From Sipunculus nudus (Eukaryota; Annelida; Sipuncula; Golfingiida; Sipunculidae), in NCBI GenBank assembly GCA_026874595.1, contig CM049311.1:45945676-46009675 (forward strand): 64,000 bases of DNA, given 5' to 3'. Under the pieces are notes generated by a model. That model made no database searches and was not told where the DNA came from. It was given only the letters and a program-made list of their open reading frames with translations. Each line of letters starts with the position of its first letter. Position 1 is the first letter of the stretch. A program made the position numbers and the translations under genes. Of this stretch, positions 47,401 through 50,400 are shown in pieces.

Positions 47401-50400
47401 ACAAGCATTACAATAAATTTTACATGTAAATACTTCTGCAGGCTTTCTGAGGATAGGACTTAAATAAAAATCTGAATATTCACTATATCTCAATATGACC
47501 ATAAGCATTAAAGCCTTTGCTTTCCCCTTGAAATCTTTTAAAGAGAACACTATATCACTTAAAATGGTGTAAGTTTGTACTTAAACATAATTGTTGTTTG
47601 TTGATGCATTCCTCAAACAAAATTGAAAACATACAAATATCTGCAACTGAGAAAATGGATAAAAATTTCTGTTACAACTATGATTAAAACATCACACTAG
47701 AGAATTCATTGATACATGGTTTACTGATACATTAAAGATGTGAGACTCTGTGTTGACAATGGTTCTTACCTGTATTACCAATTTGAAAGTCTATGTGAAC
47801 AATTGTTCTTACCTGTGATGCCCTTGTGAGAGTCTGTGAGGACAATGGTTCTTACCTGTGATGCCCATGTGAGAGTCTGTGAGGACAATGGTTCTTACCT
47901 GTGATGCCCATGTGAAAGTCTGTGTGGACAATGGTTCTTACCTGTGATGCCCATGTGAGAGTCTGTGAGGACAATGGTTCTTACCTGTGATGCCCATGTG
48001 AGAGTCTGTGTGGAAAATGGTTCTTACCTGTGATGCCCATGTGAGAGTCTGTGTGGTCAATGGTTCTTACCTGTGATGCCCATGTGAGAGTCTGTGTGAA
48101 CAATGGTTCTTACCTGTGATGCCCATGTGGTATTTATGAAACGCATCTATCAGGCCATCCTTCATCATGATGTCAGTCATACTGGCGTCCCCGAATTTGA
48201 GCCCCGCCCTCATGTGAATGGCATGGGGAGACATACTCATACTCTCCTGTCCCCCAGCAACAACAATCCCAGAATCCCCTCCTTTGATGGCCTGGGTCGC
48301 CATGGCAACAGCTTTTAACCCTGAACCACATAGCATGTTGACACCGTAGGCGGGCACTGAATGTGGAATGCCTGCATTCACACTGGCCTGTCTGGCAGGG
48401 TTCTGGCCTTGAGCTTGAACAGTATAAACCATAATTAAAATATCATATCTTACAGCCATGGCTCACAGCATTCCAGGAAAACAAAAATTCCTTACATAAA
48501 TGAAAAGATGTGACACTAAATACCTGTAGTAAAAATACAATGGTTGGAGCTTTTGATGGCTATGACTGAGGGTTCCATATAAAAACCAGGTATAGGCACT
48601 TGAATCATTTTTATCGTCATGGGAATTGGTGTATGAATTGGTATATGTAATGACAATATAGTATTTGTACATCATGAAATTATTTGTGCATCCAGTTCAT
48701 ACACTGATGTGGTAATACTTCGGCTATAGTTGCAGTGAACTCTCAGAAACAAAGACACAAGTATGCACAATAAGAATACCCATCAGCATGTATTGTACAT
48801 AAAGCCACTATAACCACACAGCTGATCATCCAGTTGATACATTGTTTGGCCATGAGACAAAATACACTGGCAGCTTTCTCTTTGTGGTCAGTCAGATTCC
48901 CAGATTCACCCTGATTGAAGGCATTTTCTTTGATTCCCTTATCTCTGATGGAAAATTAAAAGAGACTGATTACCTGCACCAACAAAGCTGGCAGGAGGTT
49001 ATGTCATCAGTTGTGTTTATGTCATCAGTTGTGTCAGTAATTTCTTTAAAAGGTCTTGGAAGATTTCAATGAAATTGTGCAGAAAGATGGGCCATTGGTG
49101 AAAGAAGAAAAAATTTCAATTTTGCCCATTTTGTCCTGCTGTTTTGTGTGTTTTTCAGAACAACATCTCCAAAATTCTATTGATTCACCCCAAAATTTAA
49201 TCAGTTGTTCCTTGCTCTACTGCCAACCTTCCCACAATTGTTTTGTTAAATAAGATAATAAATTTCTAGGTCATGCAGACATGGAAGGTAGTTTTAACTT
49301 TCATGGGTACCTTATCATTCATAGAGATTAAACAATGGTGTCTCATTGTCATTTCAATATCATAGAATTTTGGTGCTGTAACAGTTATGTCAAAATAACA
49401 TCTGGAGGTCCTGACAAGCTAATGTTAACTGGCTGTCCAGTGGTGGATGGATTATCTAGATAATATTTTACTTGTTAAACTTCTGAACTGGTATGGATGA
49501 GAGATTCAGTATGACTTTGAAAAAAAAGTAAGATTTCCCCCCAAATTAATCTTAAGAAAAAGTTTTGATACTGCTGACTTTACTTTATTCTTTCCATATA
49601 ATGATACATTTGACTCCCATTTACAGAGGGAGCAAAAGTAATATAAGCTAAATGCAATAATTTTGCATTGTCTTGTCAAAGATTATAAAACTTTATCCCT
49701 TTTGAACACAGATAATTTAAAGTATAAACTATCACTTCAGTCTAGTTTTTTTATCTATAGTCATGTCATTACCTGCTGTCAAGACTTGACCCAGGATGAC
49801 CTCTGACACGTCATCTGGGGTCACGCTGGCCCTGTTGAGGGCCTCCTTTATGACAGTTGAACCCAGGTCATGGGCAGGCACTGTAGAGAGTGCTCCATTG
49901 AAAGAACCTGTAAATTGAGTTCAATCAGAATATTAAAGGAATATTGCATGAAATGTCTAGAACATGTATTCATGGAAGTCACATACACACAACTCAGATG
50001 ACCAACACATGGCCCATGAGCCATAACACTCAACTGATCTGAAGCATGATAAGGATTGTTTAGCACACAGAACAGACTGATGTCTCTAATCTTGGTGACA
50101 GGGTGTTAATCTGTTAATCAGAAGAAAAAAAGTGAATGTTTAAAAGCCAAGGCTTACCTGACAAGAAATATTTTTTTTTGTTGGAAACAAAATGTGGCAC
50201 TTAAAAAAGATGTGACAGAGTGTGACTATGAGCCCTTATGGTCATGACTACGTCCAACAAAAAGGAGGGTAGTCAAACAGACAGAAATGACAGGCAAAGG
50301 GCCAACAGAAGCTAGACTTTGTGCAGATTATTAAACAAAATGTAGGTCAGCCTCCTAAATCTGATAAAACTTCAGGTATCAATGATCAATCAGAATACCA

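Follow-up and report, generated by a model that had tools for sequence, protein, structure and literature searches.

What a run of equal 5' splice sites beside a single exon is, how it came to be there, and whether it serves the gene that carries it, are the questions raised by the 64,000-nt stretch of DNA analysed here ('the window'), in which a 43-bp repeat runs across an exon-intron junction of a thiolase gene and carries a splice donor in every unit. In the reading that we favour, with a probability of roughly 0.77, this array (array A) is a junction-spanning minisatellite of the kind termed 'mirage' in amphioxus, and is a tolerated passenger in a genome rich in intron minisatellites rather than an evolved device.

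The host is an intact eight-exon gene on the minus strand for cytosolic acetoacetyl-CoA thiolase (ACAT2-like), with its coding parts placed as follows (a slash within a motif marks the junction).

38293..58584, minus strand: complete coding region of the ACAT2-like gene, 394 aa, without internal stop
58584-58539, minus strand: exon 1
49907-49773, minus strand: exon 2
48114..48413, minus strand: exon 3, 300 nt, phase 1 at its 3' end; its final 16 nt form the exonic part of the array A unit
47171..47314, minus strand: exon 4, with the acceptor AG immediately upstream of 47314
43201-43079, minus strand: exon 5
42101..42255, minus strand: exon 6, phase 0 at its 3' end, GCT/GTGAGT
39007-38897, minus strand: exon 7
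38463-38293, minus strand: exon 8

On joining, the phases of the eight exons are consistent and yield 394 codons and a stop, in keeping with the earlier statement that exon 3 ends in phase 1. Pfam recognises both thiolase domains in the protein (Thiolase_N, E=5.5e-104; Thiolase_C, E=6.7e-52), and the top PDB match of exons 2-8 (378 aa, a query without exon 1) is 1wl4 (E=2.7e-161; 377 residues aligned, chain residues 20-396), which we take to be human ACAT2; the open frame, the domains and this match together uphold the name ACAT2 given to the gene by the first-pass annotation, which had been made from the letters of the window. Only this ACAT2-like gene was identified in a non-exhaustive search of the window, and the window gave no matches to Rfam or in a tRNA scan.

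Array A and the elements within it lie at the end of exon 3 and in the adjoining part of intron 3, which is 799 nt long.

47738..48129, minus strand: array A, a 43-bp x 9.1 minisatellite across the exon 3/intron 3 junction (TRF, 91% matches)
48108..48116, minus strand: presumed real exon 3 donor, CAG/GTAAGA, GT from 48113, 11.0 bits
GT at 48070, 48027, 47984, 47941, 47898, 47855, 47812 and 47769, minus strand: eight intronic donor copies
48125..48129, minus strand: CACAT, left copy of a 5-bp direct repeat, within the last bases of exon 3, where the proposed seeding duplication would have its breakpoint on the exon side
47738..47742, minus strand: CACAT, right copy of the same repeat, directly beyond unit 9, where the sequence reads CACATCTTTAATG

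Each unit consists, in order, of the final 16 nt of exon 3 (CACATGGGCATCACAG), the donor GTAAGAACC and a further 18 intronic nt, the intronic share amounting to 27 nt in total; TRF and a table of the units agree on this make-up, as it had been described before. CAG/GTAAGA is present in all nine donors, the real one and the eight intronic ones for which its retention had been claimed, and the spacing is exactly 43 nt throughout; nine equal donors at so constant a distance are far beyond chance. The word 'identical', as applied to the array at the outset, is correct for the donor 9-mer (9/9) and fails for the unit as a whole, as there is a single departure from the consensus in each of units 1-7, and there are five in unit 8 and seven in unit 9. 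The 16-nt exonic part is complete in units 2-7, with one difference in unit 8 and five in unit 9; the donor 9-mer is unaltered even in the decayed unit 9, and none of the 15 variable columns of the array falls inside it (hypergeometric P=0.012, a post hoc figure).

Donor strength was scored with an approximate human donor matrix, the exon 1 donor being left out; on this scale every array A donor reaches 11.0 bits, as against 5.7-8.6 bits for the donors of exons 2, 4, 5, 6 and 7. By the same approximate matrix, the minus strand between 38290 and 49910 holds only six sites of at least 7 bits outside array A, one in the stretch scanned for array B (described below) and five elsewhere, and four of these six belong to exons 2, 4, 5 and 7 as their real donors.

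The consequences of choosing one donor or another are readily predicted. Use of the first donor (48113) gives the complete protein, whilst donor 2 shifts the frame and brings a first stop at index 159 (0-based) of the exon 2-8 reading; with donors 3-9 translation ends at this codon too, which is then a TAA supplied by the GTAAG of donor 2. A premature stop is thus predicted from all eight distal donors. The earlier expectation, that a distal donor would usually shift the frame, holds in respect of disruption (8/8), but donors 4 and 7, with inserts of 129 and 258 nt (multiples of three), keep the frame by length and still run into the TAA. Each 43-nt step can also be divided into a 22-nt piece that ends in AG (in all eight intronic steps) and a 21-nt piece that ends before the next donor; with any one of the eight 21-nt pieces inserted the frame stays open, at 401 aa, and the insert adds DSHMGIT in five of the eight units and variants of it in the other three.

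As to origin, the exonic part of the unit encodes residues conserved with respect to 1wl4 (the HMGIT/AENVAK region); since this part codes for conserved ACAT2 residues, and the intronic copies are free to drift, we take the exon to be the source of the array. The idea that the minisatellite was seeded by duplication of an exon-intron junction therefore gains good support on two counts, namely the polarity given by the conserved coding residues and the presence of CACAT at both unit ends. Judged from these features, array A was most likely seeded by a duplication of the exon 3/intron 3 junction between CACATs 43 bp apart, and then grew as a minisatellite; the simplest ancestor would be a single junction with CACAT 43 nt apart, and the CACATs, a match of only 5 bp, are likely to be the breakpoints of the ancestral unit.

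We propose that a tandem duplication between the CACAT in the end of exon 3 and that 43 nt downstream in intron 3 would have produced a copy of the exon's 16 nt, the donor and the intron bases that follow, and that unequal exchange or slippage would then have extended the array to nine units, with the units far from the exon decaying the most. Neither exon 3 nor its own donor is damaged, and all that follows the first donor sits inside intron 3. The spliceosome would mostly pick the exon-proximal donor, such that the extra donors leave with the intron, and a distal choice would lead to a premature stop and probably to nonsense-mediated decay; the predominance of the first donor is suggested by the intact gene together with precedents from amphioxus (see below).

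Two older lines of work bear on this scheme. The model of Haber and Louis reportedly has minisatellites born from short flanking direct repeats; the likeness lies in a founding unit flanked by such repeats (5 bp in array A and 3 bp in a PARP3-like array elsewhere in the genome, see below), and the difference is that a splice junction lies within the founding unit here. In the assays of Reed and Maniatis (1986), in which 5' splice sites were duplicated in test genes, the one closest to the 3' splice site is said to be preferred among equals, a tendency by which use of the distal donors would be predicted, unless exon context overrides it. Those assays, like array A, set equal donors with matched local context in competition within one transcript; unlike them, array A is a natural, ninefold version in a conserved gene.

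Array A is not singular: intron 6 of the ACAT2-like gene holds another donor array, longer than this one, others exist in the genome, and the kind is known from amphioxus. The two further minisatellites of the gene that concern us are listed here.

40836..42116, minus strand: array C, a 45-bp x ~28 minisatellite across the exon 6/intron 6 junction, CCACAAAGAAAGCT/GTGAGTCTGTCAGG (TRF 40836-42114; wrap-around alignment to 42116)
46028..47169, minus strand: array B, a 50-bp x 23 minisatellite with its first base at +2 of the intron 4 donor, its unit without exonic sequence

The unit of array C carries the final 14 nt of exon 6 together with the donor GCT/GTGAGT, and 25 junction copies have at most 4 mismatches of 24. 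Its units fall into two subfamilies, the exon-proximal ones being near-identical to the junction and those beyond about 41500 being diverged, with several donors lost; in all five cases tested, use of a distal array C donor truncates the protein. Within array B, CAGGTGACA occurs 17 times. A scan of the junctions of the ACAT2-like gene found further copies for two of seven donors, 8 for exon 3 and 25 for exon 6, and for none of the seven acceptors; the exon 1 donor had no copies. When the eight TRF arrays (periods 39 to 339) were placed at random, at least two donor-junction arrays arose in 79 of 60000 trials (P=0.0013), a value that is descriptive only, as it was the finding that led to the choice of this gene. 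Intron 5 also holds, at 42568-42719 of the window, a 57-bp x 2.7 repeat with an acceptor-like stretch (CTCTCTTTAACACAG), away from any exon.

Beyond the ACAT2-like gene, junction arrays were found at three myosin loci among 30 fetched, two at donors (L122 and L123) and one at an acceptor (L106).

L123, 523-1522 of the locus: donor array, 36-nt unit, 26 further junction copies
L106, 1768-2299 of the locus: acceptor array, unit ~82 nt, before the exon MKDERNYHIFY
L122, 6-1083 of the locus: donor array, unit ~21 nt, 52 units aligned, donor AAG/GTAGGT

In this survey 30 of 75 matches came with loci, and the donor could be placed in 26 and the acceptor in 30 of the 30; arrays at the matched exons themselves number 1 in 26 for donors and 0 in 30 for acceptors, the arrays of L106 and L122 belonging to neighbouring exons and being uncounted in these figures. 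The MKDERNYHIFY exon of L106 matches Pfam Myosin_head. The exon before the L122 array is, by reading of the frame, the putative myosin exon that follows the matched one; its short peptide gave no Pfam match (36 aa) and no PDB match (38 aa). Across three further 10-kb stretches, from two myosin genes, no TRF array with a period of at least 12 came as close as 40 nt to any of the exon matches listed.

A genome-wide search was made for three copies of a donor-like heptamer in tandem, AGGTAAG-N20-50-AGGTAAG-N20-50-AGGTAAG. The 100 places listed resolve into seven arrays (L131-L137), of which three (L132, L133 and L134, on contig C1) begin at a likely coding exon end; no convincing exon was seen at the first AGGTAAG of the fetched stretch in L131, L135, L136 or L137. 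The sole homology match among the three is that of L134 to PARP3 (3c49, E=0.0026); Pfam had no match at E <= 1 for L131, L132 or L134, and for L133 none passed the cut-off. By eye, this PARP3-like array has three near-identical 57-nt units with the exon end and the donor GGGGAG/GTAAGC, and a 3-bp GGT at its breakpoints, and it looks like an early stage of such an array.

The same search was considered as a measure of genome-wide enrichment in donor arrays. It returned 3788 matches (1866+1922) against 1265 (600+665) for the reversed control, counts which refer to matches and not to arrays and which are not independent, many falling in one array; this threefold excess is gone once all five same-composition controls (1265-4545) are set beside it, the other four being GATGAAG (3928), GAAGTAG (2321), AGAGTGA (3841) and AGTGAGA (4545, a control that itself contains the donor-like GTGAG). 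Minisatellites abound in the host genome, of 1.43 Gb, and junction arrays may be those among them whose start fell by chance at an exon end and which were tolerated in that place.

The evidence for selection on the donor motif within these arrays is mixed and small. Among the 9-nt windows of the unit, none varies less than the donor 9-mer in array A (three others of 43 tie with it) or in array C (one other of 45 ties with it). For the L123 donor, three of 36 windows are lower in variability and two others equal; for the splice window of the L106 acceptor array, ten of 82 are lower and seven others equal; and the L122 donor window is the most variable of its unit, with 20 of 21 windows lower. 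Copying from the exon-adjacent unit, whose true donor is kept by selection, would explain the pattern in arrays A and C.

The closest known counterparts are the boundary-spanning tandem repeats that were named 'mirages' in the amphioxus Adh gene, and which are also described in the globins BflGb6 and BflGb9, in troponin C and in PGBD5 (PMC3087553, PMC3902484, in the sections available to us). In these portions of the two papers splicing is reported as undisturbed despite the repeated AG/GT signals, and repeat number as differing between haplotypes; the units are given as about 10-160 bp, many keeping AG/GT (PMC3087553, excerpted), and in a gene model of PGBD5 copies of the repeat are annotated as an exon (PMC3902484, likewise in extract). 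Within the literature searched, as far as the accessible text of these sources goes, the term in this sense was found for amphioxus only (PMC3087553, PMC3902484). The arrays of the ACAT2-like gene resemble mirages, as the accessible text presents them, in being minisatellite-like repeats of an exon-intron boundary with splice signals, a class that takes in both donor and acceptor sides: the units of arrays A and C contain 16 and 14 exonic nt, measure 43 and 45 bp, and keep the donor in 9/9 cases in array A and near the exon in array C. They differ from mirages in that two separate donor arrays occur in one gene, one of them with nine identical donor 9-mers, and in that the host is probably not a cephalochordate.

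On this last point the evidence is modest: the genome measures 1.43 Gb, and the first eight PDB matches of a muscle myosin exon score 187-189 bits as against 184 bits for Myosin-7, the next in order, a small margin of about 4 to 5 bits; these eight are presumably squid and scallop chains. A mollusc or another lophotrochozoan is the likely host. The molluscan haemocyanin domain PF14830 found no match in the genome search, an outcome that the tool itself describes as uninformative.

Other cases are more distant. For human segmental duplications, 27 cases are reported in which tandem repeats at exon-intron boundaries have modified an intron, most of them (66%) also with an alternative transcript, and both alternative splicing and new introns are said to result (PMC2812944, in the part available). 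There too the repeats are minisatellites at exon-intron boundaries (units of about 30 bp on average) and vary in copy number, but, on that partial account, new introns form there, whereas an existing intron is lengthened here. Tandem duplications that contain splice signals are likewise described, in the portion of PMC4974935 at hand, for potato RdRp and for fission yeast genes with 24-bp AGGT repeats; the presence of splice signals within duplicated segments is shared with array A, and the difference is that a new intron arises in those cases and none is seen here. The intronic minisatellites of earthworm metallothionein (PMC12783039) and of C. elegans (PMC4039745) are, in the passages available, none of them described as junction-spanning. 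The kind of structure is thus already known, and the present case stands apart by its host, by nine donors that are identical and by two arrays in a single gene.

Whether array A does something for the gene has to be weighed against this background. It might act as a decoy for splicing or as a control of dosage: U1 snRNP would be captured by the eight additional donors, and their use would give stop-bearing extensions of exon 3, such that array length tunes the amount of productive ACAT2 mRNA; we hold this to be unlikely. It would account for distal donors whose scores equal that of the real one and, on the approximate human matrix, exceed those of exons 2, 4, 5, 6 and 7, for a stop at one codon in 8/8 distal choices, supplied by donor 2's sequence from donor 3 on, and for the intact 9-mer of unit 9 (with the post hoc P value given above); the alternative splicing ascribed to human boundary repeats in the available part of PMC2812944 is a precedent by which a splicing role for array A is possible. 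Against it, array C brings an early stop too, though several of its distal donors are lost, so that truncation by an intron insert is unremarkable; the donor of L122 is the most variable window of its unit; and the amphioxus mirages are reported, in the accessible text, without aberrant mRNA (PMC3087553, PMC3902484). In its broader form, this idea would make junction donor arrays in general into length-variable governors of splicing, whose donors compete for U1 and bring their own stop, with array length setting the amount of ACAT2; that we consider very unlikely, and were it true, arrays on several genes would provide natural dosage variation by minisatellite length. It is highly improbable that selection retains the copies as spare strong 5' splice sites near exon 3, for U1 recruitment and robustness of splicing: the donor 9-mer is indeed least variable (with ties) in arrays A and C and intermediate in L123 and L106, but in every case tested the reading frame is lost when a spare copy is used, homogenisation from the exon-proximal unit gives the same pattern, and L122, with 20 of 21 windows lower than its donor, points the other way.

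The remaining alternatives seem to us scarcely credible. That the length of array A, or the array itself, is a misassembly would have a parallel in one amphioxus mirage, of which the draft assembly is reported to be aberrant (PMC3087553, from the excerpt available); array A, however, has units with distinguishing substitutions and a gradient of decay, is under 400 bp with different flanks, leaves exon 3 and the reading frame intact, and has similar arrays at other genes of the genome. An extremely improbable role is also that of a nursery for new exons, the 22 + 21 nt split making of each unit a possible frame-preserving microexon of 7 residues; the AG at the end of the 22-nt piece in 8/8 steps and the open 401-aa frame with every 21-nt piece agree with it, as does the modelling of exon and intron gain from mirages in the part of PMC3087553 at hand, whilst the candidate acceptors have no clear pyrimidine tract (by eye, not scored) and the split was noticed post hoc. 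For array A as a tolerated passenger, it speaks that the distal donors truncate the protein (8/8 in array A, 5/5 tested in array C) and yet the gene is intact. Against this preferred reading, a least-variable donor 9-mer, as in arrays A and C, is not required of a pure passenger, and the human boundary repeats with alternative transcripts (PMC2812944, in the part available) indicate that such arrays can alter splicing; the tendency reported by Reed and Maniatis, the PGBD5 gene model of amphioxus, the shortness of the CACAT match and the triple-motif counts, which show no excess over the controls, weigh on the same side.

Array A repeats in nature, nine times over, the classic experiment with duplicated splice sites: its donors are identical and evenly spaced, the gene is a conserved one, and counts of junction reads from it would reveal how the cell chooses among many equal donors. 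More generally, splice-junction minisatellites of the amphioxus type probably extend to another phylum, and arrays of this type are able to hit two introns of one gene; they bear on the lengthening of introns and on the beginnings of new exons and introns.

Some minor observations concern other contigs of the assembly. A search for COX1 gave 11 matches, nine of which have open frames of 577-578 aa and nearly equal scores; these nine lie on contigs C60, C61, C62, C66, C72, C74, C75 and C89, the last (3.33 Mb) holding two copies 2.04 Mb apart, and six of the nine that were compared share 96.0-99.9% DNA identity. The eleventh match is a short one, on contig C5. We take the nine matches to be bacterial, from a reading of one of them (L017) and from comparison with genome contigs, and their contigs look like several strains of one host-associated bacterium; L017 has at most 58% protein identity to the 80 loci listed from genome contigs. 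A SUP05/Thioglobus-like identity for these contigs was considered and is not borne out by the comparison with genome contigs. Contig C123 (112 kb) has a G+C content of 52-54% in positions 1-20000 and, by eye, genes for a cbb3-type oxidase and a nucleoside catabolism cluster; by gene content it is bacterial, and our guess would be a marine gammaproteobacterium. Within the window itself, 10824-11192 and 21708-22055 on the minus strand hold two mutually similar open frames (ARQNCRKTCITNEEVGYLN...), which are likely to be copies of a dispersed repeat.
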